Shown: piece by piece, positions 2,017 through 22,848 of the stretch
How positions within the stretch are numbered: position 1 is the stretch's first letter
How the letters are laid out: every line of letters begins with the position of its first letter
Assembly (NCBI GenBank): GCA_016206805.1
Contig: JACQQX010000031.1
Span: 1-32,479, forward strand
DNA: 32,479 nucleotides
Origin: Candidatus Omnitrophota bacterium
GTDB taxonomy: Bacteria; Omnitrophota; Gorgyraeia; 2-02-FULL-51-18
Direction of reading: 5' to 3'
Notes under the pieces: model-generated
The model's input: only the letters and a program-made list of their open reading frames with translations
What the model was told of the DNA's origin: nothing
The model's database searches: none
Translations under genes and position numbers: made by a program

Positions 2017-4032
2017 ATGAAGCGCATTAAAAAACACTCCGGTTTCGCGATTATCGAAGCGTTCATCGCTTTGACGGTGGGGACTATATTCCTGGGGTCG
2101 GTTGTGAGCACCTGGTATTACAGCTCAAAAGTGTGGCGCGAAGAAAATACGCAGTTTAACCTGCGGCTGGACGTGGAAAAGGCCATGGAGCGCATCAAAA
2201 ATGATGTGAGGCTTTCGGATTCAAACGGGATTTTATTTTACCCTCAAAATTCGGCCACTTATTCGGCTGTCAGTCTTCCGCGCGGCACAACGGACGCCAA
2301 CGGTTATCTGACATTTTCCGGCGGCGCCATTTCCTGGGACCAAACGATCATTTACCATATTTATACTGAGAACGGTTTGTCTCAACTGCGCAGAAGTATT
2401 TTTAATTCCTACAATGCCAGCTCCGCGGCGCGTCAGGTGCAATTGGAGGATCTGGTGGCCAACGGATCCGATGCCAACGCGACAACGATGATTTTATTGT
2501 CCAGCAACACGACGACTTTGGAAATCACGCCTCAGACGGCCACTTTTGACGGATACGCTTCCAGTGTCTCCAGAAGCGGAAGCACGAGCTTTGGCAGCGC
2601 GCGTCTGACGGCCGGGAATCATCAGGTTCGATTTGAAGTCACCGGAAAAAACACTTCTTCCAGCGGCTACGGCATCGGCATGGATTCCATTACCTTGAAC
2701 CCGAGCGGCGGGCCCCAAGAGGCCGAAGCGCTTTTGCCGCTCTATGCCAGTTCGGGCGCTTCCGGGACAGCCCAGGACATGTCTTCCTACGGCGCTTCCT
2801 GGGGCGGGAATTATCAGGTCCATTTTCCGGCTTCAGCGGTGGGCCATTACATGACTTTTGAAACCAATTATGACCAGTGGCTGGAATCCAATTTTTCCAA
2901 TATGACTTATTCCAACGCGCTGACGACCGGCACCAATCCTTATGTCACGCTTTCCAGCCGCCAGACGCAGGGCTTGTCGCCTTCATGGACGGCTGGCGCT
3001 CAAACGGGGGAGATTGGGGTGATGAACGACCCTTCGGCGGTAGGGCAAACCGTGCGCACCGTGATTGCCGGAGCTTTTATTATGCGATCGGGGCAGATGA
3101 TGCGCCTTAAATTTACGGCGGCAACCGACGCGGCGCTTACGATAGATGCCGCTACTTTCGGCCCCCGCGCGGCCGGAGCGGACGCCGCTTCTTTAGTGCT
3201 GCTTTATTTTGATAACGCTCCGGTGTTGGCCGGCGATACGGATCCGGAAGGCTCAACAGCCAGTCCCGGAGCCAATAGCAGCGTAACCATTCCGGCTGGT
3301 TACCATGTTTGGACCAATTGGTTTATTTATACGGTAACCGCCCCTTCGGCCGTGGATTATGTGGCCAGCGCTTACGTGAGCTCGGGAAGCGCTAGCGTGT
3401 GGACCACATCGCCGCCCACCACTCAATCCTATCGCGTGGATGGGAATCACGCGGCAACCGTGACGGGTTGGGATCTCTTGCCCGGCTATGCCACGAACAC
3501 CGCAACCTGTGCCGTGACGGAATTGGCGACCTGGCAGGATAGCGGTACGGCGACCTCTCAGGTGTACGACACCAAAATGACGGCCCCTGTTTTTAATCAA
3601 ATCTCCTGGTCTTCCAGCTTGCCGACGGGCGCCACGATTACCATGCGAGTGCGGGCCTCCGCCAACGCCGATATGTCCGGCGCAACGGCTTGGAGCGCGA
3701 TAGTGGGTTCTTTGATTTCACCCGCCTCTCTTTCGGGTGTCGCCAATCAACGCTATGTCCAATTTCAGGCAACCTTGCAGGCGGCGGCGCCTTATACTTT
3801 GTTTCCAACGCTGGATGATGTCAAAATCACCTGGCCCGGCCAAACCGCGATCGTGGAGTTGAGCGGGTATTACACCAGGGGTCCCGATTACGGTATTTTT
3901 AAAGTTTTAATTGACGGCGCGCAGCCCACGCGAGGATTGGAAATCAAGCTCAGCGCTTCCGGAAGTCAGCAGGACCGGACGTTCAATTTCTCATCCACGA
4001 GTGAGGTTAAAGCCATGAATACCGGAAGGTAG
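2017..4032 (+). CDS. Large PilW-like prepilin with beta-rich ectodomain
   Basis: The N-terminus has a prepilin signature: KKHSG, cleavage, then FAIIEAFIALTVGTIFLGSVV with Glu at mature position 5. A long helix (about residues 40-65) rich in charged residues follows, as in PilW/PilJ-type minor pilins. At 671 residues it is two to three times the usual PilW length. The extra mass is Ser/Thr/Gly-rich and looks like several beta-sandwich domains. One stretch near 195-235 (HQVRFEVTGKN, then GYGIGMDSITLNPSG) resembles carbohydrate-binding sandwiches of surface proteins. It is probably a filament-tip adhesin or specialised minor pilin. The pilin N-terminus is certain; the adhesin role is inferred from size and composition. 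Confidence 0.7.
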   Translation: MKRIKKHSGFAIIEAFIALTVGTIFLGSVVSTWYYSSKVWREENTQFNLRLDVEKAMERIKNDVRLSDSNGILFYPQNSATYSAVSLPRGTTDANGYLTFSGGAISWDQTIIYHIYTENGLSQLRRSIFNSYNASSAARQVQLEDLVANGSDANATTMILLSSNTTTLEITPQTATFDGYASSVSRSGSTSFGSARLTAGNHQVRFEVTGKNTSSSGYGIGMDSITLNPSGGPQEAEALLPLYASSGASGTAQDMSSYGASWGGNYQVHFPASAVGHYMTFETNYDQWLESNFSNMTYSNALTTGTNPYVTLSSRQTQGLSPSWTAGAQTGEIGVMNDPSAVGQTVRTVIAGAFIMRSGQMMRLKFTAATDAALTIDAATFGPRAAGADAASLVLLYFDNAPVLAGDTDPEGSTASPGANSSVTIPAGYHVWTNWFIYTVTAPSAVDYVASAYVSSGSASVWTTSPPTTQSYRVDGNHAATVTGWDLLPGYATNTATCAVTELATWQDSGTATSQVYDTKMTAPVFNQISWSSSLPTGATITMRVRASANADMSGATAWSAIVGSLISPASLSGVANQRYVQFQATLQAAAPYTLFPTLDDVKITWPGQTAIVELSGYYTRGPDYGIFKVLIDGAQPTRGLEIKLSASGSQQDRTFNFSSTSEVKAMNTGR

Positions 4033-4036
4033 GGAA

Positions 4037-5164
4037 GTGATGAATAATTCAAAAGGGACTGTATTTTTATCGACGATGATTGCCATGCTCCTGATGATTT
4101 TGACCGGAGAGGCGATGTATCTCATGGCGGATCAGGGCGTTTACGCGGTTAAGAGACTGCGTTTGGCCACCCAAGCCAAGCATCTGGCCGATTCAGGTCT
4201 TGCGATCGCCTTCGCGTCATTGGCCGGCAATTTTGTCACTAGCTCCACATGGAATGGCAGCATTTCCGGTTTTGGCGGTTATACGGCGACCGCTTCGACG
4301 TCCTCGGGACGGACATTGGTTGTCGCCACCGGAACCGTTCAGGGGGTGACGGTAACTTCCAGCGCTGAAGTCACGCCTCCGTCCGCTGATATCATGGATT
4401 ACAGTCTTGCCGGAAGCAATGTTGACTTTTACCTGGCCGCCTTTAACATGGTGACGGCCACCGGCAGTATCTATTCGGAAGGCAATATGACTTTGGATGC
4501 CAATGCCACCACCTCGGTCATTAGTTTGACGTCTCCTGGAAACGTGAATGCCGGCGGAACGATAACAGTCACCGGTTCCGGGCTGATCACGATGGGCACG
4601 GCCACCTCCAACGCGTCCCTGGCGTCTTATCCGACGGTTGACTTTGCTTATTATCAAAACTTGGCTCAGAACGGGGGAGGGACGTACGTAAATGGGGATG
4701 TCACTTATAACAGCTCTAACGCCATGCCTTCACCGGCGGGCGGCGTCATTTACGTCAACGGCAATGTTAGCATTACTTCAGACCAGACTTCGACGGCGGC
4801 GTTGATTGTCAATGGAAACTTAAGCATCAGTCGCGGCGCGACGACGATTGTGGCGCCGGCCAATCTGCCGGCCATCGTTACTCAGGGCGCGATTACCATC
4901 AGCGGGATCGGGGCCAACGCGGCTGATTTAACGGTTACAGGACTTATTTATTCCGGAAATGACTTTACCATCACCGGCAATCATCATAACATCATGGTTA
5001 CCTATGGCGCCATTATTGCCCGCGGCAATTTTGTCGGCAACTCCAGCGGTTTTTCCCAAAGCGCTCTGACAATTATTTATCCCACCACAACGCCCGCGTT
5101 TTCATTGAATGGAATTACCAGCGGCGGCAGCTCACAGATGGCCGTAGAAAGCTATAACCGGTAG
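4037..5164 (+). CDS. PilX-like pilus assembly protein with repeat-rich C-terminus
   Basis: The N-terminus is short and basic, followed by a hydrophobic helix (about 8-27) and a segment with ALLMILTGEAMYL-like spacing and KHLADSGLAIAFASL, typical of the PilX/PilW-associated N-terminal domain. From residue 120 the protein is made of short repeating beta turns (VNGDVTY, VNGNVSI, VNGNLSI, TITG), which suggests a right-handed beta-helix or solenoid. GTG at 4037 and ATG at 4040 are both in frame, with GGAAGGTAGGGA just upstream; the 4-bp gap to the preceding gene shows co-transcription. It is probably another component at the filament tip or base. No enzyme motif is seen, and no clear terminator follows. 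Confidence 0.65.
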   Translation: MMNNSKGTVFLSTMIAMLLMILTGEAMYLMADQGVYAVKRLRLATQAKHLADSGLAIAFASLAGNFVTSSTWNGSISGFGGYTATASTSSGRTLVVATGTVQGVTVTSSAEVTPPSADIMDYSLAGSNVDFYLAAFNMVTATGSIYSEGNMTLDANATTSVISLTSPGNVNAGGTITVTGSGLITMGTATSNASLASYPTVDFAYYQNLAQNGGGTYVNGDVTYNSSNAMPSPAGGVIYVNGNVSITSDQTSTAALIVNGNLSISRGATTIVAPANLPAIVTQGAITISGIGANAADLTVTGLIYSGNDFTITGNHHNIMVTYGAIIARGNFVGNSSGFSQSALTIIYPTTTPAFSLNGITSGGSSQMAVESYNR

Positions 5165-13259: not shown

Positions 13260-13853
13260 TTATAACACTCCGTCCAGCCGGAGCCAATTTTCTGTATTGA
13301 AATTTTTTGGAAGATGGCTCAAATCCGCCGGTTCCACGCCGGCAATGTCCTGGCTTTTAAAATCCATCGAGCCGGCATTGTAAATGCCGAGAATTTCTTT
13401 TTTATCGTGAATAAATACGTTTTCGATCCATCGACCGTCGCGTAAAACTAGATGAACCAGGTGTCCTTTTTTCATCGTTTCAGGCAAGGATTTAAGGGTG
13501 TCCCGCCAGCGTGACTCCAAAAGCCGATCCTTTGGATCAACCAGAACGCTTCGGATCGGAAACAAGTGGCGCGCCTTTTCAAGTTCGGCCGCTTCCCGCG
13601 CCATGCGCGAATCCTCGTAAGCTTTATCGACTTTCGCGTACATGACGATAATCAGCGGAATTAAAAGCACAATCCAGCTGCCGAATACCGCCGTCACCCA
13701 AAGAATGGGAACGTCTTTTTGCTGCATGGGCCCCACATGCTGGGCGATAAAATTGGTCCAGAACGCGCAGGATACAAAAAACGAAGCGATGGTCAGGACA
13801 ATCCATCCGATCCACCACAATACCGTTTGAGAACTTTTAGAGTTTTTGGGCAT
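13260..13853 (-). CDS. Membrane protein of unknown function in the respiratory cluster
   Basis: This 197-residue protein has two transmembrane helices (about 12-33 and 50-71) joined by a short periplasmic or cytoplasmic loop. A charged helix (about 73-95, VDKAYEDSRMAREAAELEKARH) follows, then a soluble domain with beta-strand character (HLVHLVLRDGRWIENVFIHDKKEILGIYN). I do not recognise the family. It overlaps the CtaB-SCO fusion gene by 17 bp and is followed by the ferredoxin, so it is probably translated with them. An assembly or accessory role in oxidase or bc-complex function is a reasonable inference only. Confidence 0.7.
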   Translation of the reverse strand: MPKNSKSSQTVLWWIGWIVLTIASFFVSCAFWTNFIAQHVGPMQQKDVPILWVTAVFGSWIVLLIPLIIVMYAKVDKAYEDSRMAREAAELEKARHLFPIRSVLVDPKDRLLESRWRDTLKSLPETMKKGHLVHLVLRDGRWIENVFIHDKKEILGIYNAGSMDFKSQDIAGVEPADLSHLPKNFNTENWLRLDGVL

Positions 13854-15162
13854 CTCTCGCCAGCTTTTGCATGGCTTCCGGATCCGAAGAGTCGTAATAA
13901 CCGCGGATTTGTAAAGTCTGATCCACCAGGGCCAATCGAAGGCTGTGCATCCCGGGATCGTCGCTTGTGTTCACATAAAAACTTTTGAGGACTTCGTCAA
14001 TTATTGGTTTCTGGCCGGTGAGAAACAGCCACCGGTTGGGTTCTGGATTATAATTTTGGGAGTAGTTTTTGAGGACGGCCGGAGAATCGTATTCCGGGTC
14101 CACGCTGAAAGAAATAAGTTTCACGGACGGCGGAAGCTTCTTCTGAAGGCCTGAGATTTTCACATTCATCAATGGGCATTGTCCGGCGCATCGCGTGAAC
14201 ATGAAGCTGCCCACCCATGGTTTACCTTTGAGTTCATCGGAAGTCGTGGTTCGGCTATTTTGATCGACCAGATCAAATTTCTGAACTTGTCCGTATCGCG
14301 GCAGCGCTGTTGAGGCGCCGGGAAGCGTTCGGGCATCCGCCACCATAAAAATCAATAAACAGAGCAGATACAAAATGGACGCCGGCACCAGCATTTTGGG
14401 CTGGGCTAGCTTTGTGATAAACAGATAAATCGTAAACGCCAGAAATCCGGTACCGGCCAACAACGCCCCCGCGAAATAAAGATCCCCTGTCAGGCCGACC
14501 AGAGACGGAGAGACGCTGATCGGCACAAAAAGGGCCGAGTAAAGCGCGATCATCCACGCCGCGCGCTGGCCATCGGCATCTTGAGTCGCCATCATTTTGA
14601 GCCCGCTGGCGGTGTAATCCTCTTTATAAAGCCGGGCTATCGCTAAAAAATGAGGCAGCTGCCAAAAATAGAGAATGCCAAATAACGCCAAAGCGCGTTC
14701 ATTAAGGGCTTGTCCGGCGGCGGTCCATCCCATCACGATGGGGATCGCTCCCGGAATGGCTCCCACGAAAGTGTTGAGAGCGGTTTTGCGTTTCAAAGGG
14801 GTGTAGACAAAAAGATAAGCGCAGACGGTTAGTCCGCCCAATGCCATGGTCAGCGTGTTTACCCCGAAAAATAAGATGAACAACCCACCCACGATCAGCG
14901 TCAATCCAAAAAAAGCGGCCTCGAGCGATCCTAGGCGGCCGCTGGGCAATGGCCTATTTTTAGTGCGGCTCATCCGCGCATCAACGTCTTTTTCCAGAAC
15001 TTGATTGAGGGTATTGGCTCCTCCCCCCAAAAGCAAAGCGCCGCTCATAACCGCCAAGAGTTGCGGGGTAAGCGCCGGATGCCCCATCAGGTAACCCACG
15101 AGTGTGGTGATCGCTACGGTGACGGTCAGGCGAACTTTAGTGAGTTCGAGGTATTTAGTCAT
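13837..15162 (-). CDS. ctaB: Heme O synthase (CtaB) fused to a SCO-type copper chaperone
   Basis: Residues 1-275 form a UbiA-type prenyltransferase with about 8-9 helices. The prenyl-diphosphate site is NQVLEKDVDARM, with NRPLPSGR after it and YTPLKRKTALNTFVGAIPGAIPIVMGW, as in protoheme IX farnesyltransferase. After a linker, residues 290-441 are a thioredoxin-fold SCO1/SenC domain with Cu ligands Cys325, Cys329 (FTRCAGQCP) and His406 (MHSLRL). The fusion joins heme O synthesis with Cu-A delivery, two maturation steps of the same haem-copper oxidase. No stop or frameshift lies at the join. It overlaps ctaA by 8 bp. Confidence 0.9.
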   Translation of the reverse strand: MTKYLELTKVRLTVTVAITTLVGYLMGHPALTPQLLAVMSGALLLGGGANTLNQVLEKDVDARMSRTKNRPLPSGRLGSLEAAFFGLTLIVGGLFILFFGVNTLTMALGGLTVCAYLFVYTPLKRKTALNTFVGAIPGAIPIVMGWTAAGQALNERALALFGILYFWQLPHFLAIARLYKEDYTASGLKMMATQDADGQRAAWMIALYSALFVPISVSPSLVGLTGDLYFAGALLAGTGFLAFTIYLFITKLAQPKMLVPASILYLLCLLIFMVADARTLPGASTALPRYGQVQKFDLVDQNSRTTTSDELKGKPWVGSFMFTRCAGQCPLMNVKISGLQKKLPPSVKLISFSVDPEYDSPAVLKNYSQNYNPEPNRWLFLTGQKPIIDEVLKSFYVNTSDDPGMHSLRLALVDQTLQIRGYYDSSDPEAMQKLARDAQKL

Positions 15163-16015
15163 GGGCAGTAAGCCGGAATAATCGTAGTGTCAGAAGAACG
15201 CATGTGACCAAAATCAGGGCTCCCGTTGATTGATGGCCGGTGGTAAAAAGGACTTCCGCGAGCCTCGGAACCTCGGAAGGCTCCAAGCGATGGGTGTAGA
15301 TAAATGAACCCAGCCCCATAAAAATCTGCGCGAGCGCCAAACTGCCCAGAAAAAGCGAATGTCCTGTCAATTTTTCACGAATCCCATCCGCTTGAGAAAT
15401 GCGGCCGTTTAGAAGCAGCGCGTGCAGGACCACTAAAAATCCGACCACGATATGGGCGCTGACCGCTTTCATATTTCCCGAATGCCGGACGAGGGCCCCG
15501 AGGATTAATTGAATAAAAATAAAACCAACGGTTAGAACGGCCAATCTTTTGAGTTTGGGAGCGTCTTCAACAGAAATCCTTTCGGTAGTCAGCCATTCGG
15601 GAGAAGTAAAAAGCGCGATGGCGGCGATCAGGCTAAAAAAACTTTGAGCCAGGCAGGCGTGTAAGACCGAAATGGGCATCGGAAGCAGGTATTTGACGGT
15701 CAACGCGCCAAGAATAGCCTGAACGAGCACCGCTGCCACGGCAAGGCCCCCCAGCCATTTCACCCAAGACCGCTTTTCGGCCCTCAAAAGATAAAAAAGC
15801 AGGAAAAGGGTCAAAAGACCGACGCCGGCGGCGATCACGCGGTGCGTGTGTTCAAAACGAATTCCGCCGATCATCGGTGGGAAAAACTTGCCGTAAGAAA
15901 GCGGCCAGTCGGGAACGGAAAGTCCCGAGCCGGTGCTGGTGACAAGGCCCCCGGCTATGATGAGGACAAAAGTCGCCGCGGCGACCAATCGGGAATAAAG
16001 ATGCAGAGATCTCAA
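15155..16015 (-). CDS. ctaA: Heme A synthase (CtaA/COX15)
   Basis: This 286-residue polytopic membrane protein converts heme O to heme A. It has eight predicted helices in two similar halves. GGLVTSTGSGLSVPDWP is the family signature in the first loop. The catalytic and haem-ligand set is visible as Glu55 and His58 in FEHTHR, His119, His188 and His261. It overlaps the cupredoxin-like gene by 4 bp upstream and ctaB-SCO by 8 bp downstream, so the heme A pathway genes are translationally coupled. This implies an aa3- or caa3-type oxidase elsewhere in the genome. Confidence 0.94.
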   Translation of the reverse strand: MRSLHLYSRLVAAATFVLIIAGGLVTSTGSGLSVPDWPLSYGKFFPPMIGGIRFEHTHRVIAAGVGLLTLFLLFYLLRAEKRSWVKWLGGLAVAAVLVQAILGALTVKYLLPMPISVLHACLAQSFFSLIAAIALFTSPEWLTTERISVEDAPKLKRLAVLTVGFIFIQLILGALVRHSGNMKAVSAHIVVGFLVVLHALLLNGRISQADGIREKLTGHSLFLGSLALAQIFMGLGSFIYTHRLEPSEVPRLAEVLFTTGHQSTGALILVTCVLLTLRLFRLTAHD

Positions 16016-16710
16016 GGCTTAAACGTGAACGAGGTCTCCTGCTCCCCTTCAGCCACTGTCATGTTTTGCGTTTGAGCGCCGTATTTTTCATGCCAGGCTT
16101 CGAGAACATAATTGCCCGGGGGAAGATTTTTAATCTCAAACTTTCCTTCGTCATCCGTCACCGAGTAAAAGGGATGATCCAGGACGCCGGCATAGGCGGC
16201 CATCCAGGGATGGACCTCGCATTTGATTTTGACCATGACTTCCGGTTTGGAGAAGGATTTTTTGAGTTTCATGCCTTTAATGGGCATGCCCAGGTTAAAA
16301 CCCTGGCTTTGCGTGGGAAGCGAGTGCACATTGTGGAGCGTATCGTCGCTATTTAAAATCTCAAGCGTTTGGTTGACCTGAATGCCAAACACCTTTGGCT
16401 TGTATTCACAACCCACCTGATCAAATACCACGGATTCTTTGGGAGTTTCGAATTTGCCCTGCGCGCCCTCCTTGACATACACAAATACATTTTTCAAGGT
16501 GCCGTTGGAATTAACAATAACGGAGCTGGCTTCCAGACCCGCCGGATGCATCATTTTGCACTTGGGGTCAGCGTCCACCTTGATCTTCTCGGCGGCGGGG
16601 GCAGCCCCTTCAAAAAGGGCTTTACCGGTTACGGCGGCCTGGGCGGAACCTATCGCAAATGTCATTAAAAGGGAAAACAAAGCAGCTGAAAATAAAGATT
16701 TGGGTCGCAT
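16012..16710 (-). CDS. Periplasmic cupredoxin-like protein with C-terminal beta domain
   Basis: A signal peptide (1-26, cleaved after AQA) precedes a cupredoxin-like domain. Candidate copper ligands are His126 or His129 (TLHNVHS) and the Cys164-x2-His167-x2-Met170 block (CEVHPWM), the usual type I copper order. From about 178, SVTDDEGKFEIKNLPPGNYVLEAWH is a carboxypeptidase-regulatory-like beta sandwich. Such proteins are seen beside periplasmic electron carriers. Here it lies between the octahaem cytochrome and heme A synthase, so it may shuttle electrons or copper from the bc complex to the oxidase. AAGGAG precedes the ATG by about 10 nt. Confidence 0.78.
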   Translation of the reverse strand: MRPKSLFSAALFSLLMTFAIGSAQAAVTGKALFEGAAPAAEKIKVDADPKCKMMHPAGLEASSVIVNSNGTLKNVFVYVKEGAQGKFETPKESVVFDQVGCEYKPKVFGIQVNQTLEILNSDDTLHNVHSLPTQSQGFNLGMPIKGMKLKKSFSKPEVMVKIKCEVHPWMAAYAGVLDHPFYSVTDDEGKFEIKNLPPGNYVLEAWHEKYGAQTQNMTVAEGEQETSFTFKP

Positions 16711-16758: not shown

Positions 16759-19545
16759 TTAGGCTTTCGCAACACCATTTTCGTGGTAGAGATAGTCCCG
16801 TATGGCTTCGATTTGCGCCTGGGCATCTCCTCCGAGGATTTCCGTGAGGGGTGTCTGGCCGTCGACGAAAAAGGATGGCATCATGGTGCCCGCTTGAAGC
16901 GCTTCGGGGTTTTGAATCCAGGCTTTGACCCAGTTGGGCTTCAGCCGCTTTTTGGTTAAAGACAGGTCCGGCGCCAGGAAAGAGGCGCCCATCGCGGCCG
17001 ATGAAGCGTCCAGCTGGTGGCATTTGACGCATTGGAATTGGTTGAAAATGGTCTGGCCGGCCGCCAGTTTTTCGGGGGTTGTCTCAGGAACGGGGTGACC
17101 CTTATAGGAAGCCTCTTCATGAGAAAGATTGGCAAAATATTCCACCAAAGCCTGGGTGTCTTTTTCATTCAATCCAAACGTAGGCATGCGGTAAGTTAAC
17201 CAAGGACGGATCACCGTCGGCTGCCGCAGGAATTCGTGCAGCCACTTCTCCTGCACCTTGGCCCCTTCCCCGTCCAAAACGGGCGGCGCCGCGCCCGGAT
17301 CTTCGGTGAGTTCCCGAAGCGTGCCGTTTTTTCCGTCAAAGGTGTGGCAGCCGTTGCAATTAAACTGCGCCACCAAAAGCCGGCCCTCTTCAACGCGCTC
17401 TTCTTTTAAATCCAAACGTTTTCGCATTTGCAGCGGGACCTGCTCTTCAGTGAGGCTGAGGACGAAAGTAGTGAGCGACTCGATCTCGGCATCGGTGAAA
17501 TTAAACTGCGGCATGCGGAGTTTTTCATAATAAGAGCGGATCTTGCCCCGATCAAAGATCCGCGGATCTTTTAATTTTTGTTCAATAAAGGCTTCGCGGG
17601 AATGTTCGATGGGCACAAAGCCGAAGTCAAGCTGATGGATGTCTTTGCGGCCCTCGTTGGACAGGTCGGCGCCGATGGGTTTTTGGTCCTCAAAGCCTTT
17701 GATGGCGTGGCAGGTGAAGCAACCCTGATGGGCGATGGATTTCTTGCCCAAAAATTCAAGCCGTTCGTCAGCGTTCATCTGGTCAAGCTTTGCGCGGGCT
17801 TCCTGGGCTCGCATGGCGCCCTGAAAGGATTCTAAGATAAGACTGTCAACCACTTCCGGCATCACTTCGGGGATGCTGGTTTTTTCGAAAGACTCATTGC
17901 GCTGGGAAAGCAAATAGGCGGTGATATGCGCGGCTTCCGGATCGGATAGCCGAAGATTGGGCATGCGGGTATGGGATGAATAGTGCTTGGGGTCTTTGAT
18001 CCAGGTAAATAGCCAATCGGCGCCGACCTTGCTGCCCAGATTCGATAGTTCGGGCCCGAAGCTGTCGCCCTTGGCATCGCCCACGCTATGGCAGCCCAGA
18101 CAGCCCAGAGATTTGACGAGCTTCTCCCCTTCTTCGGGATTGCCGGGAATGGGCGCCGCCATTAAAGTGATGGGCTCAGAGTTTTTTACCAAATAAGCGG
18201 TGATAGCGGCGATCGCGGCGTTGTCGCGTTCCCTGTCGGCGGCGTCTTGATGATTGGACAGATGGAAAATTTGGGGCATTTGGGTGGAGGGCCGGAAAGC
18301 CTTGGGATCGTGCAGCCAGCGGGTAATCCAGTCTTCATCCACCTTGCCGGACAGATGCGTTAAGTCCGGGCCTACTTTCCAGCGCTCCTCGAAGCCGTTG
18401 ATTTTATGGCAATTGAAACAGCCGAACTTCGCGGCAAGACGCCGGCCTTCGTTCAAGTGGTCCGCCTGAGGCACTTCCACCACGTCATTGTGGCATTTGG
18501 CGCACGAGGCTTGGGCATGCTCCAAAGGAAGCATTTTTTGCTCCCATTTTTCCAGATCGTGCCAGCCGTATTTTTTCTTCCACTGCCTGGCTTCTTCGGG
18601 GCCGGATGGCGTATGGGCGGCGTCCGTGAAACTGACGGAATGACCGCTGCCGCTATGGCAAACGGTGCAGCCAAATTTCTCGACCGGATGCGGGGATTGG
18701 GAGCCCAGATAAAGATCCAGGTCCGGATGCGTGCGAAAAGGCTGCGGCATGTCTTCGAAACCTTTTTGGTCGATGCCCTGATGACAAGTCGTGCAGCGAT
18801 CCACTTTTTGAGTTTTGGCGAAGTGATAGTCGTCATACAAGTCTTCGAGGACAATCTGCTGGACCTGGAGAGACGGTTTTAAAAAGTCGAGCATGGGAGC
18901 GTTCAAAATATCCTTGGCCAGCGTCGGCTTGACGCGGTCCAGCTTCCCCTGCACCAGCCTTTTTTCGGCCAACAGCTTTTCGATTTCTTTTTTGACCTCT
19001 TTTTCTTTGGCGGAAAAGTCTTCCAGCTGAGCGGCCTTTTCATCCCTCAGTTTTTCGGCATCGTCCTGTTCTTTTTTAGCCGCGGCGACTTTGGGGCTTA
19101 TGGTTTGGAATTTTTTCTGAAATTCCTTGGCGCGCGGATCGTGATGAGTGCTGTATTCTTCAAAATAATACCGGTAGGAGTCCTGAAACTGTTTCTGGTC
19201 CTGGTAATGGGTTTTGGCTTGGGCGAAACGAACTTCAAGAGCCTCAAGCTCCTTGCGGGTTTTGGCCATCTCGGCGCGCTGTGATTTTCTTTCCATTTGC
19301 GTCTGCTTTAACCGCTCGGCCAGCGTCGCGAGCTGTTTTTTATCGACTTTCGCTTCCGCCTCCGCCAGCTCCTTTTTTGCCCGCTCTGTTTTAATGGCGA
19401 CAAATTTCTTCTGCCAGACTTTCCACTCGCGGGAATGGTCCATAAGGACGATGGCGACCAAAGACCCCAGCAATAAAAGGCTGATGATCGCAAACCACAT
19501 GAAAGTTTTGGCGATGCTGTAAAGAGTCGGCGTGGGTTTGGCCAT
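16759..19545 (-). CDS. Membrane-anchored octahaem cytochrome c with coiled-coil stalk
   Basis: The 928-residue protein has one N-terminal transmembrane helix (about 14-35), then a highly charged coiled coil (about 50-205). Eight CxxCH haem sites follow at Cys251, 293, 348, 376, 482, 609, 730 and 839. The last five lie in repeated modules with downstream Met-Pro motifs (near 423, 528, 678, 787, 889) that would give His/Met ligation, as in class I cytochromes c; the first three probably have bis-His ligation. It begins 2 bp after the cytochrome subunit-IV-like gene, so it is probably the periplasmic electron-accepting subunit of the bc complex, held off the membrane by the stalk. I do not recognise a named family of this full architecture. 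Confidence 0.88.
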   Translation of the reverse strand: MAKPTPTLYSIAKTFMWFAIISLLLLGSLVAIVLMDHSREWKVWQKKFVAIKTERAKKELAEAEAKVDKKQLATLAERLKQTQMERKSQRAEMAKTRKELEALEVRFAQAKTHYQDQKQFQDSYRYYFEEYSTHHDPRAKEFQKKFQTISPKVAAAKKEQDDAEKLRDEKAAQLEDFSAKEKEVKKEIEKLLAEKRLVQGKLDRVKPTLAKDILNAPMLDFLKPSLQVQQIVLEDLYDDYHFAKTQKVDRCTTCHQGIDQKGFEDMPQPFRTHPDLDLYLGSQSPHPVEKFGCTVCHSGSGHSVSFTDAAHTPSGPEEARQWKKKYGWHDLEKWEQKMLPLEHAQASCAKCHNDVVEVPQADHLNEGRRLAAKFGCFNCHKINGFEERWKVGPDLTHLSGKVDEDWITRWLHDPKAFRPSTQMPQIFHLSNHQDAADRERDNAAIAAITAYLVKNSEPITLMAAPIPGNPEEGEKLVKSLGCLGCHSVGDAKGDSFGPELSNLGSKVGADWLFTWIKDPKHYSSHTRMPNLRLSDPEAAHITAYLLSQRNESFEKTSIPEVMPEVVDSLILESFQGAMRAQEARAKLDQMNADERLEFLGKKSIAHQGCFTCHAIKGFEDQKPIGADLSNEGRKDIHQLDFGFVPIEHSREAFIEQKLKDPRIFDRGKIRSYYEKLRMPQFNFTDAEIESLTTFVLSLTEEQVPLQMRKRLDLKEERVEEGRLLVAQFNCNGCHTFDGKNGTLRELTEDPGAAPPVLDGEGAKVQEKWLHEFLRQPTVIRPWLTYRMPTFGLNEKDTQALVEYFANLSHEEASYKGHPVPETTPEKLAAGQTIFNQFQCVKCHQLDASSAAMGASFLAPDLSLTKKRLKPNWVKAWIQNPEALQAGTMMPSFFVDGQTPLTEILGGDAQAQIEAIRDYLYHENGVAKA

Positions 19546-19547
19546 GG

Positions 19548-20630
19548 CTAGATGTTGAAGAAGAACTCAGGAATGGCGACGATGTATTTGAGATTAAAGG
19601 CCCAGCGCAAATACATCTTGATGGGAAGCGAAAGCATCATTAAAAGCAAAAAGACCATGATTTGATAGCGCGCCGGCCCCAGCTTTTTATACACTTCCTT
19701 CAGTTTGGTGCGGGCTAAAATCAGCGGCGGAACGGCCAGATACAGCGCGGTTAGAAGTATGCCGGGCGCTTCGCGGATAAACCATTGCTTGGGCAGGCCG
19801 ATACCCAGCCATTTGATAAAAATGAGCTCCGAAAGGTTAACGTTGAGCAGCGGCACGACTTTGTGCGCATCCCAGGCTTCGAAGGGTCCGAAGAAGTTCC
19901 AGTTCGGACCGCGCAGGAACGTGCCCATGATGACCAAAAGCGTCCAAAGGATCCAGAAGCCAAACAGATACGTGACGATGACGGCTTTTCGGCCTTTAAA
20001 CGAATAATAGCCGGAGCCGGACGGATCGCGGTCAATATACGGAATCGCGCAAAGACCCAGAATAATCAACGTGGGCAAAAGAACGCCGGCTATCCACGGA
20101 TCAAAGTAAACGAGCATCTCCTGCAGTCCTAAAAAATACCAGGGCGCTTTGCTGGGGTTTGGCGACACGGTGGGATTGGCCGGTTCTTCCAAAGGGGCTT
20201 TCAAGAAGATGGACCATAACACCAGAATGACCGCGTAAGCCAGCGCCGTGACAAATTCGATAAAAATAAGATAAGGAAAGACCAGGACTTTTTCGTTGGT
20301 TTCGGTTTGTTCCACGGTGGGTTCCCCCCTTTCCACGCGCATGTCATTGATAACGGCTTTGCGCATGGCGTACCACGTGAAATAACCAAAAATAAAAATC
20401 AATCCCACGATGGGAACATTATCCGGCATGAAAACGATGCTGCGAAAATGCTTGTCGGTGAGCCCAAGGCCAAAAAAAGCCAGCGCGCCGATCAGAACAG
20501 CCAGGCTGACGGGTTTGGAAGTGGCTTGGCGGGGAAAAGTAACAAACAGCGCGAAAACAGCCGTAGCGGCCGAAAAAATCACCACCGGCGAAGAAATGGC
20601 ATTGACGAAATTCTTGAAGATATCAATCAT
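19548..20630 (-). CDS. Cytochrome b C-terminal (subunit IV-like) protein of the bc complex
   Basis: The likely start is the ATG at 20630 (MIDIFKNFVNAI), giving 360 residues. A longer reading frame runs back through a repeat into cytochrome b and is not protein-like. About nine hydrophobic segments are seen. The block PNPSKAPWYFLGLQEML is the quinol-site region of split cytochrome b subunit IV, with PWY in place of the classic PEWY, and it is followed by AIPYIDRDPSGSGYY. Extra helices at both ends make it longer than the 160-residue plant subunit IV. No ribosome site precedes the ATG, which directly abuts a short TTCGAA repeat. Confidence 0.85.
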   Translation of the reverse strand: MIDIFKNFVNAISSPVVIFSAATAVFALFVTFPRQATSKPVSLAVLIGALAFFGLGLTDKHFRSIVFMPDNVPIVGLIFIFGYFTWYAMRKAVINDMRVERGEPTVEQTETNEKVLVFPYLIFIEFVTALAYAVILVLWSIFLKAPLEEPANPTVSPNPSKAPWYFLGLQEMLVYFDPWIAGVLLPTLIILGLCAIPYIDRDPSGSGYYSFKGRKAVIVTYLFGFWILWTLLVIMGTFLRGPNWNFFGPFEAWDAHKVVPLLNVNLSELIFIKWLGIGLPKQWFIREAPGILLTALYLAVPPLILARTKLKEVYKKLGPARYQIMVFLLLMMLSLPIKMYLRWAFNLKYIVAIPEFFFNI

Positions 20631-20668: not shown

Positions 20669-21460
20669 TTAAAGGGGTCCGCTGATTCCGCCGTCTTTTC
20701 GAATGCGCCAAAAATGCACGGACATGAGAATCACCACCGCCGTGGGAATCGCCACACAATGCAAAATATAAAACCGCAACAGCGCTCCCGCGCCGACAAA
20801 GCGACCGCCCAACAGCGCGAAGCGCACATCACTGCCGGAGTGAACCAGCTGAATATCTCCGAGCGCTAAAAGCGCCGCGCCCGGGCCTTCATGACCCAGG
20901 AAGGGCGTGGCCCTGGCCATATTGCTGCCGACGGTGATGGCCCACATCGCCAGCTGGTCCCAAGGTAAAAGATAGCCGGTGAAGCTCAGCAGCATGGTCA
21001 AAACTAAAAGGATGACGCCGATCACCCAGTTGAACTCGCGCGGCGGTTTATAAGAACCGGTCATGAACACCCGGAACATGTGCAGCCACACGGTGATGAT
21101 CATCGCGTGCGCTCCCCAGCGGTGCAGTTCGCGCATGATGCCAAACGGCACGTGTTCGCGCAGCGCCATAATGTCATTGTAAGCGTGTTCCACGGTCGGC
21201 CGGTAATAGAACATCAATAAGATCCCGCTAACCACCAGCGTCAAGAAAACAAAAAACGACAGCCCGCCCGCGCACCAGGTGAAACCAAACCGCGCCCCGG
21301 ATTTGCGCACCTTCACCGGGTGCAAATGAAAGAAAACGTTGGTCATTACCGAAAGCGCGCGGTCACGCTCAGAAGTGGAATACCCATGCCGAAACATGGA
21401 TTTATAAATCTGCGATTCTGTGATAATTTTGCCTAGATCAAACTTGGGTTTGTCGCTCAT
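20669..21460 (-). CDS. Cytochrome b6-type subunit of the bc complex
   Basis: The 263-residue, four-helix protein matches the N-terminal half of cytochrome b. Haem ligands are His113 and His127 in helix B ([20 protein letters not shown]) and His234 and His249 in helix D. The second pair is 15 apart (14 residues between), the b6f-type spacing rather than that of mitochondrial cytochrome b. [20 protein letters not shown] forms the quinol-site region. A 45-residue N-terminal extension precedes the core. It overlaps the Rieske gene by 4 bp (ATGA). With the subunit-IV-like protein it forms a split, menaquinol-type complex in the inner membrane. Confidence 0.93.
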
Positions 21461-21996
21461 AGCGTGAGAAAAGCCTCCGGATTATTCCATTCCCCTTTTT
21501 CCTGCTGGAACTTTTTGCTTTTATCGATGAGGATTTGCCCGTCTTCCGCGCGCATGATGCGGTAACGCTCCAGCGGCCGCGGCGCGGGGCCTTCAAAATT
21601 GATGCCTGATTTGTAAAAACCGCTGCCGTGGCAGGGGCATTTGAATTTGCTTTCGGTCGACAGCCAATTGGGCGTGCAGCCCAAATGCGTGCAAATCGTG
21701 GAAAGCGCGAACATTCCTTCGGCGGTGCGGATCAGCCAGACGCCGAACTTTTCCTTCCAGCGCTCATCCACCACGCCGATTTCATAATCATCGGGAAAGC
21801 CGGCTTTAAAAGAAGTGGGGGGTTCGAATACGACATTGGGGAAAAGATAGCGGAGAACAATCGAAAGAGCGCCGGTGGTCGCGGCGGCAAAACTGACCCA
21901 GGCCACTCCGGTCCAGGAAAGAAACGTGCGGCGGTCAATTTTTTGCGGCCCAGCCGGTGTTTGCGGCGCCGGGGGCGGCGTTTGGATTTCTGCCAT
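21457..21996 (-). CDS. Rieske iron-sulfur protein of the bc complex
   Basis: The 179-residue protein has a Pro-rich N-terminus, then a twin-arginine-like DRRTFLSW before a single hydrophobic helix (about 27-50), which serves as export signal and anchor. The [2Fe-2S] cluster is bound by Cys102 and His104 (CTHLGC) and Cys120 and His123 (CPCHGSGF); Cys107 and Cys122 would form the usual disulfide. It carries electrons from the quinol site to a c-type haem, here presumably on the octahaem protein. It is directly abutted by the HEAT-repeat gene upstream and overlaps cytochrome b downstream. Confidence 0.95.
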
Positions 21997-22848
21997 TTAT
22001 TGTTTGGTCCCGATGTAAGTGATCGCGTCCATCGCCGCCTGCCTTACTTTCAGATTTTTGTCGTCTTTGGCGATGGATTGTAGAATTTTAATCGACTCAG
22101 GCTTACGAATCAAGGCTAATCCTTTAAGCGCGTTGGTCATGATTTTTTCAATCTGGTCTTCCAGGAGCCTGAATTCGGTTTCAAGTGTCCCCCGGTCCAG
22201 CATTTGCGCGAGCATCCCTTCTCCGGCGGCGCTGCCCAGACGCGCCAAGCTCAGCGCGGCGTTCCATCGCACATCCGCCACGGGATCCGCCAGCAGTGGT
22301 TCCAAATTGGCGGCCGCGCTTTTATCCCCCAGCACTCCCATCGCATAGGCGCCCAATTGCCGCTCTTCCCAGCTTTCGGATTTTAGAAAGGGCGCGATGT
22401 GGCCGGCTGCCGCGCGGTCTTTGCGCATGCCCAGCGCCCATAACCCGTACAGCCTGACGTCCGGATAGGAATCATTCAGCGCTTCCATAAGGGCCTCCCC
22501 CGCTTCTTTATCCGGGAAATGGCTTAAAGCGATGGCCATGTAGCCGCGGGTTTTGCCGTCGTAACGCGAAGAATCTTTCAGTATCGCGATCGCTTCCCGC
22601 ATCACGCCCGGACTTTGCCGGTCTTTGCCGCGATTGAGTTCATTGGAAAATTCGTAGGCCTTCTGCCAGCGTTTTCCGGGAGAGCTGGTTTTTATTCCGG
22701 CGATCAGTGACTCGGGCGTTTCTTTTTCATGGGTGAGAATAACCACCGTGCAGAGCAAAACAGCCATTCCCACGGCGATGAGCAGCGGGAAAATAAAAAG
22801 TCCGAAAAAAAGCTTTCTGCCGGATCCGGCGGGTTTGGTTTCGGTCAT
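21997..22848 (-). CDS. Membrane-anchored HEAT-repeat protein
   Basis: This 283-residue protein has one N-terminal transmembrane helix (about 13-37) followed by a solenoid of roughly five or six HEAT/PBS-lyase-like helical repeats. Examples are EALMEALNDSYPDVRLYGLWALG, NLEPLLADPVADVRWNAALSLARLG and a final KVRQAAMDAITYIG. Such repeats bind other proteins. It has no catalytic motif. Because its stop codon ends exactly where the Rieske gene begins, it may be an assembly or docking factor for the bc complex; that function is inferred from position. It overlaps the MFS gene by 4 bp. Confidence 0.82.
   Translation of the reverse strand: MTETKPAGSGRKLFFGLFIFPLLIAVGMAVLLCTVVILTHEKETPESLIAGIKTSSPGKRWQKAYEFSNELNRGKDRQSPGVMREAIAILKDSSRYDGKTRGYMAIALSHFPDKEAGEALMEALNDSYPDVRLYGLWALGMRKDRAAAGHIAPFLKSESWEERQLGAYAMGVLGDKSAAANLEPLLADPVADVRWNAALSLARLGSAAGEGMLAQMLDRGTLETEFRLLEDQIEKIMTNALKGLALIRKPESIKILQSIAKDDKNLKVRQAAMDAITYIGTKQ

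Follow-up and report, generated by a model that had tools for sequence, protein, structure and literature searches.

The question raised by this locus is which protein carries electrons out of a Rieske/cytochrome b complex whose genes are accompanied by neither cytochrome c1 nor cytochrome f. The stretch of DNA that was analysed (the window) comprises 32,479 nucleotides (nt) from a Candidatus Omnitrophota bacterium (assembly GCA_016206805.1, contig JACQQX010000031.1; host genome 1.39 Mb, 87.6% complete), and the gene in question, on the minus strand of the window, encodes a cytochrome c of 928 amino acids (aa) with eight haem sites. We hold with good confidence that this octahaem protein serves a b6-type Rieske/cytochrome b complex (respiratory complex III) as its electron-output subunit. 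Gene order, motifs and co-occurrence with an oxidase were read from sequence and the hairpin form of the stalk was predicted, while haem ligation, the path of the electrons and the function of the stalk are inferred. The cytochrome and its parts are as follows.

16759..19545, minus strand: octahaem cytochrome c subunit, 928 aa, ATG start (open reading frame; Pfam Cytochrom_C and Cytochrome_CBB3; 51 relatives aligned)
19435..19515, minus strand: transmembrane helix, residues 11-37 (hydropathy and AlphaFold2)
18931..19428, minus strand: helical stalk, residues 40-205, predicted antiparallel hairpin (AlphaFold2; heptad period 3.50; near-invariant length)
19135..19146, minus strand: predicted hairpin turn, residues 134-137 (both AlphaFold2 models; mean pLDDT of residues 131-140, 92 in the second)
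18781..18795, minus strand: haem 1 CxxCH, residue 251, probably bis-His (motif in 51/51)
18655..18669, minus strand: haem 2 CxxCH, residue 293, probably bis-His (motif in 51/51)
18490..18504, minus strand: haem 3 CxxCH, residue 348, probably bis-His (motif in 51/51)
18406..18420, minus strand: haem 4 CxxCH, residue 376, probably His/Met with Met423 (motif and Met-Pro in 51/51)
18088..18102, minus strand: haem 5 CxxCH, residue 482, probably His/Met with Met528 (motif and Met-Pro in 51/51; SoxX-like fold, Z 12.8)
17707..17721, minus strand: haem 6 CxxCH, residue 609, probably His/Met with Met678 (motif and Met-Pro in 51/51)
17344..17358, minus strand: haem 7 CxxCH, residue 730, probably His/Met with Met787 (motif in 51/51; Met in 51 and Pro in 50 of 51)
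17017..17031, minus strand: haem 8 CxxCH, residue 839, probably His/Met with Met889 (motif in 51/51; Met in 48 and Pro in 51 of 51)

The open reading frame (ORF), hydropathy, AlphaFold2 models and CxxCH motifs agreed with a preliminary description of the window, according to which a single 928-residue protein combines a membrane anchor, a coiled coil and eight haem sites. The anchor was evident as a hydropathy peak at residues 16-34 and as a helix at residues 11-37 in AlphaFold2. All eight CxxCH motifs were invariant among the 51 aligned octahaem relatives, an alignment from which the much enlarged L028 (1505 aa, large insertions) and L150, a duplicate of L027, were excluded. A search of the whole genome for the CxxCH DNA pattern gave 86 matches as opposed to 26 for a reversed-pattern control, and the octahaem ORF was both the densest cluster of these matches and the only ORF with more than four close together. 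A Met-Pro motif follows each of haems 4-8, its Met being present in 51, 51, 51, 51 and 48 of the 51 relatives, respectively. Exactly three further His residues were conserved, namely 273, 286 and 311 (in 51, 51 and 49 relatives), and these candidates are probably the second ligands of haems 1-3. The haem part would then consist, probably, of three bis-His haems by the membrane (1-3) and five His/Met class I domains (4-8).

Two AlphaFold2 runs of the cytochrome, performed with 23 and 55 sequences, gave models with mean pLDDT of 78.1 and 84.8. Comparison by VIA-align matched residues 458-550 to SoxX (Z 12.8, 93 residues, 1.8 A). Foldseek searches with both models returned no match below E 0.001, and matches from a PDB sequence search with the whole cytochrome as query were confined to c-domains.

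The association with the neighbouring cytochrome b genes was evident from gene order. As the preliminary description had noted, the octahaem gene lies directly after the split cytochrome b genes, petB (263 aa) and petD (360 aa), with 2 nt between the end of petD (19548) and the start of the cytochrome (19545). Relatives were gathered by cytochrome sequence alone and not by gene context, so that adjacency to bc genes was not built into the comparison. Among 52 eight-haem ORFs (loci are designated L, genomes G), 49 followed petD or petB and three, L081, L115 and L138, were untestable, lying 2, 132 and 232 nt from a contig end. Since L150 is the same locus as L027, and with the addition of L021, which follows petD, the octahaem gene adjoined petD or petB in 49 of 49 testable distinct loci. 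In L024, petD was present beneath a spurious ORF; five truncated copies (L010, L084, L086, L091 and L167) agreed on the gene order. From the 56 loci of a wider search, L021-L030 were taken in and L031-L076, which contained one or two short c-domain stretches, were left out; L029 and L030 are contig-end fragments that allowed no neighbour test, and L090, a one-haem ORF of another kind, was excluded.

Named sources of these relatives included Kryptonia (L022, L023), metagenome-assembled genomes (MAGs) labelled Acidobacteria or Terriglobia (L021, L024, L025), a MAG labelled Deferribacteres (L026) and a Pirellulales MAG (L028). The gene order was thus found in other phyla too, and homologues distant from bc genes were not the rule. 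The Pirellulales homologue (L028, 6696-11213) is greatly enlarged by insertions. Relatives with 5, 6 or 10 haems were also noted in the phylum of the window (12, 3 and 2, respectively); what these have in common with the window protein is its membrane-proximal part, about residues 225-400, and all 17 of 17 follow an unsplit cytochrome b of 504-635 aa. They are stalkless (L088, L089 and L169-L183), and ten-haem and octahaem systems were found together in G133 and G169, as were six-haem and octahaem systems in G126.

The distribution of the cytochrome was compared with that of the oxidase subunit COX1 in a sample of 285 genomes of the window's phylum. The cytochrome family was present in 57 genomes and COX1 in 57 (56 over the cut-off): both were present in 50, the cytochrome only in 7, COX1 only in 7 (one below the cut-off) and neither in 221. 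Fisher's test of this co-occurrence gave p 3e-40, a value that ignores shared ancestry and is overstated because the genomes are related. The octahaem form itself was counted by hand in 43 of the 285 genomes, 41 with a near-full-length match in an open frame of at least 870 aa and two, G007 and G071, with broken copies. When coordinates were compared by hand, 12 of the 50 genomes proved to carry COX1 and the octahaem gene on the same contig, no more than 8.5 kb apart (G060, G069, G071, G072, G088, G092, G098, G107, G133, G157, G233 and G259). In the genome of the window COX1 is on another contig, within a COX2-COX1-COX3 cluster, and the COX2 lacks a fused cytochrome c.

Cytochrome c1 was found over the cut-off in 0 of the 285 genomes, and none was found in the window's own genome. 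Cytochrome f was likewise found over the cut-off in 0 of the 285, with weak sub-threshold matches in 152, mostly to ORFs of about 1350 aa. From adjacency to bc genes, absence of c1 and f, and co-occurrence with a haem-copper oxidase, the octahaem protein very likely replaces c1 or f in complex III, the place first suggested for it.

The stalk between the anchor and the haem part could be followed in the models as well as in the alignment. Its helices span residues 40-205 (166 residues), with breaks at 66-68, 89 and 134-137 in the second AlphaFold2 model, and both runs placed a turn at residues 134-137 between long helices. Secondary structure, confidence values and fold matches of these models together predict that the stalk probably folds as an antiparallel hairpin between the membrane helix and the haem part. 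Because both models turn back at residues 134-137, the haem part should begin near the base of the arm. Residues 89-176 were matched by VIA-align to helical structures (e.g., 88 residues at 1.8 A, Z 11-12), among them a lengthened ROP (84 residues, 2.4 A), although such Z values can reflect a common arrangement of helices. A mirror test of hydrophobic positions centred the turn at residue 135 (C=270, r 0.67), a weak result since the peaks recur every 7 residues. The coiled coil proposed earlier was confirmed, its span being 166 residues where about 155 had been given. Mean hydrophobicity of the stalk over 48 stalked sequences peaked at a period of 3.50, a peak reached in 0 of 2000 column permutations; the signal in the window sequence alone was borderline (104 of 2000 permutations).

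Mean pairwise identity across the stalked sequences was 27% for the stalk and 49-56% for the haem parts. The two arms measured 93-96 and 69-73 residues in 44 of the 48 sequences, the exceptions being L021 (76 and 70) and L160, L163 and L165 (95 and 81); no correlation was noted between the lengths of the two arms (r 0.03). Residues 111-132, just before the turn, showed an identity of 0.39 compared with 0.21-0.24 around them. Beyond the base of the arm few stretches are better conserved (rank 6 of 134 sliding blocks, of which the maximum starts at residue 114), a conservation that suggests a contact near the tip of the hairpin. The stalk is missing from three octahaem relatives, L024, L025 and L026, in which the first haem is at residue 82-108 and the gene order is retained; this indicates that the stalk is an insertion dispensable for placement of the haems.

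The gene order in the window is HEAT-repeat protein, Rieske, petB, petD, octahaem cytochrome, cupredoxin-like protein, CtaA and CtaB-Sco. The genes on either side of the cytochrome are listed below.

21997..22848, minus strand: membrane-anchored HEAT-repeat protein, candidate extra subunit or assembly factor (Pfam HEAT_2; one membrane helix near the N terminus)
21457..21996, minus strand: Rieske iron-sulfur subunit (Pfam; best PDB match 9rk3, Kustd1480, E 8.4e-45)
20669..21460, minus strand: cytochrome b6 (petB), 263 aa, Cys63 (Pfam; alignment to solved b6 chains)
19548..20630, minus strand: subunit IV (petD), 360 aa, Qo motif APWY, 8-9 predicted membrane helices (Pfam Cytochrom_B_C; start from relatives)
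16012..16710, minus strand: secreted cupredoxin-like protein, candidate electron acceptor (His126, Cys164, His167 and Met170 in 41/41)
15155..16015, minus strand: CtaA, haem A synthase, oxidase assembly (Pfam COX15-CtaA)
13837..15162, minus strand: CtaB-Sco fusion, oxidase assembly (Pfam UbiA and SCO1-SenC)

By a hand count, a HEAT gene lies directly upstream of the Rieske gene in 35 of the 39 stalked loci with enough upstream sequence, being absent at L022, L023, L028 and L168, as opposed to 0 of the 17 testable stalkless loci; L089 and L180 gave weak HEAT matches far downstream. In the window's phylum the stalked form may have the HEAT protein as a subunit or assembly factor. The petB product aligns with solved b6 chains from residue 60 through the C terminus, in keeping with a four-helix cytochrome b that is encoded apart from subunit IV, and its Cys63, matching their Cys, is presumably the residue that binds haem cn. 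All 39 of the phylum's stalked loci that were scored have this Cys, as does L028, and it was present in 0 of 3 Kryptonia-like loci and in 0 of 20 stalkless loci; the position is Gly in Kryptonia-like L022, L023 and L168 and Gly, Arg or Tyr in stalkless loci. Two His residues ahead of the first cytochrome b helix, at petB residues 45 and 47, were conserved in 63 and 58 of 66 sequences; models of Kuenenia complexes place an extra haem b on a cytochrome b His at the dimer interface, a position that may correspond to one of these.

For petD, the true start is the ATG at 20630, where relatives begin, and a 403-aa ORF from a TTG is spurious. Hydropathy peaks numbered 9 in the window petD (threshold 1.3) and 8 in 40 of 55 petD ORFs (threshold 1.4), and the window protein carries long extra stretches at both ends; subunit IV of canonical b6f has three membrane helices. 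The Qo motif read APWY in 51 of 52 petD ORFs of stalked loci and in that of L021, and likewise at all 19 stalkless loci that were scored. The second position of this motif is said, in the accessible text of PMC9162462, to vary with redox potential and quinone type. On the other side of the cytochrome, the cupredoxin-like gene begins 48 nt downstream, and its His126, Cys164, His167 and Met170 form what we take to be the pattern of a type 1 copper site. CtaB (UbiA) and Sco are fused in one ORF of the window, and the corresponding ORFs of several relatives show other splits or fusions. Well outside the conserved cluster, about 15 kb off, the window contains an alginate-export-family outer-membrane gene (73-1494) and, after it, two long ORFs (671 and 375 aa, in 2017-5164) with no Pfam match.

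If the octahaem protein is the output subunit of the complex, quinol would be oxidised at a Qo site formed by b6 and subunit IV. By homology, one electron would be recycled via the b haems and haem cn, and the other would pass to the Rieske centre and from there to the putative bis-His haems 1-3 by the membrane. This electron would then traverse the five His/Met class I domains of haems 4-8 and leave either by way of the cupredoxin or straight to the CuA site of an aa3-type oxidase. Like the helices modelled for Kustd1485 of Kuenenia, the stalk probably lies against the complex, along it or round it, rather than reaching out, and may there hold the Rieske protein, the HEAT partner or both; it would not take haems across the periplasm.

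Several observations weigh against parts of this account. The region of haems 1-3 (residues 231-310) was poorly modelled, with pLDDT of about 43-66 in the second AlphaFold2 model, and 7 of the 57 cytochrome-bearing genomes showed no COX1, though some of these are incomplete. Among octahaem loci with enough room, a cupredoxin-like gene was found within 1 kb downstream in only 25 of 48. Further, a deficit of 19 residues in L021 is confined to arm 1, and an excess of 11 residues in three other relatives to arm 2, so that pairing of the arms in register would require shifts elsewhere in these proteins.

Other explanations were weighed against the same evidence. The preliminary description had read the long stalk as suggesting reach across the periplasm, perhaps to an outer-membrane or supercomplex partner; in one form of this reading the cytochrome would span the periplasm and pass electrons to an outer-membrane or extracellular partner. 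This did not hold up and now appears improbable: both AlphaFold2 models give a hairpin, stalkless octahaem relatives occupy the same position in an identical gene order, oxidase co-occurrence indicates an acceptor in the inner membrane, and no porin-cytochrome or outer-membrane gene was recognised among the conserved neighbours. To these may be added the long helices of Kustd1485, which the accessible text of PMC12954380 describes as modelled round the complex. What speaks for reach is the length of the stalk, the capacity of eight haems to make a wire and the presence in the window of the alginate-export-family gene, distant as it is; in view of the hairpin models and the stalkless relatives the explanation was rejected. 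An adjacent reading, unlikely but deserving of consideration, is that the hairpin and the HEAT protein form a docking arm that ties complex III to the oxidase in a III-IV supercomplex, the haems replacing soluble cytochrome c. In its favour, the arms are nearly constant in length (about 95 and 70 residues) despite their low pairwise identity, the patch at residues 111-132 just ahead of the turn is conserved, the HEAT gene accompanies stalked and not stalkless loci, no cytochrome c is fused to the genome's COX2, and COX1 is near the octahaem gene in 12 of the 50 genomes. Against it, COX1 is not that near in the assemblies of the other 38, the window's among them, the HEAT gene is missing from Kryptonia-like stalked loci, and a gene for a cupredoxin carrier adjoins in many loci. 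More tentatively still, the fixed-length hairpin and a dedicated periplasmic HEAT subunit might constitute a branch-specific arm that docks an eight-haem wire on the oxidase, a kind of supercomplex not yet described.

Two further explanations concern the reaction itself. Electron bifurcation yielding NAD(P)H, which has been proposed for Kuenenia complexes, is suggested by the window Rieske protein, which is closest to Kustd1480, a part of such a complex. It is very improbable here, since the ten genes scanned round the cluster include no NAD(P) oxidoreductase (the rest of the genome was not searched) and the neighbouring genes are for oxidase assembly; the lack of such a gene near the cluster led to its rejection. 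That the protein is a catalytic enzyme of the HAO or nitrite-reductase type, placed beside bc genes by accident, has its eight haems to recommend it and next to no likelihood. No HAO/ONR family was found among Pfam or NCBIfam matches, for which reason this candidate was rejected; haems 4-8 resemble separate His/Met domains, and the adjacency to cytochrome b is constant in several phyla. The reading of the octahaem protein as electron-output subunit is therefore retained.

With this reading, octahaem complex III, previously described in a few bacteria of the nitrogen cycle, is extended to a phylum whose members mostly have small genomes, as well as to Kryptonia and to acidobacterial and planctomycete MAGs. 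Its c-type subunit appears modular: the number of haems (5, 6, 8 or 10) and the presence of a stalk vary, and bc gene order and the membrane-proximal haem module are constant. The finding points to a possible extra subunit (HEAT) and a shape (hairpin) that can both be tested and, for annotation, indicates that these genomes hold complex III even where searches for c1 or f come up empty.

Compared with b6f and bc1, the system of the window has a Rieske protein, the b6 fold and a haem cn Cys as in b6f, and differs in the absence of cytochromes f and c1 and in its Qo motif (APWY as opposed to PEWY); the cytochrome c1 and unsplit cytochrome b of bc1 are both missing from it. In the Geobacter Ext operon comparison, petB, petD and the cytochrome matched the NCBIfam models ExtP, ExtQ and ExtS, all below equivalog cut-offs, and the ExtQ and ExtS models covered just part of the window petD and cytochrome. 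Multihaem cytochromes have been proposed as early Rieske acceptors, according to the accessible text of PMC5317091.

Closer likenesses are found among nitrogen-cycle bacteria. The accessible text of PMC3578206 (2013) describes, in Nitrospina gracilis, a b/b6-type bc operon beside which an octahaem cytochrome of atypical kind is the sole c subunit, and the same operon in Kuenenia and Methylomirabilis oxyfera. By published description, these operons have in common with the window a Rieske protein, a cytochrome b split in the b6 manner and one octahaem cytochrome that is their sole c-type subunit; in that text neither a stalk nor a HEAT gene is mentioned. The Kuenenia complexes of PMC12954380 (2025), again from accessible text, have a b6-like b, a five-helix subunit IV and hexa- or octahaem cytochromes instead of f, and Kustd1485 was modelled with long helices that wrap halfway round the complex. 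Kustd1480-1485 thus resemble the window cluster in the b6-like b, the subunit-IV-like protein and a large multihaem cytochrome c with long helices in place of f. In agreement with this, the window Rieske protein matched Kustd1480 (9rk3) with 155.9 bits, compared with 84.3 bits for Kuste4569 and at most 56.8 bits for other b6f Rieske proteins in the PDB. According to the same text Kuenenia differs in its NAD(P) oxidoreductase, none having been seen among the ten genes round the window cluster, and in a subunit IV of five helices as opposed to 8-9 predicted ones, while the HEAT gene is extra in the window. In literature outside subscription papers, no report was found of the HEAT gene or of a complex from the window's phylum, nor in print of a HEAT gene linked to a stalked form, a near-invariant arm length or an 8-9-helix subunit IV. 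Given both published accounts and the Kustd1480 match, octahaem complex III is not new in kind: such complexes had been reported from other bacteria, to which the window and its relatives add a broad new lineage, an arm of fixed length and a possible extra subunit.

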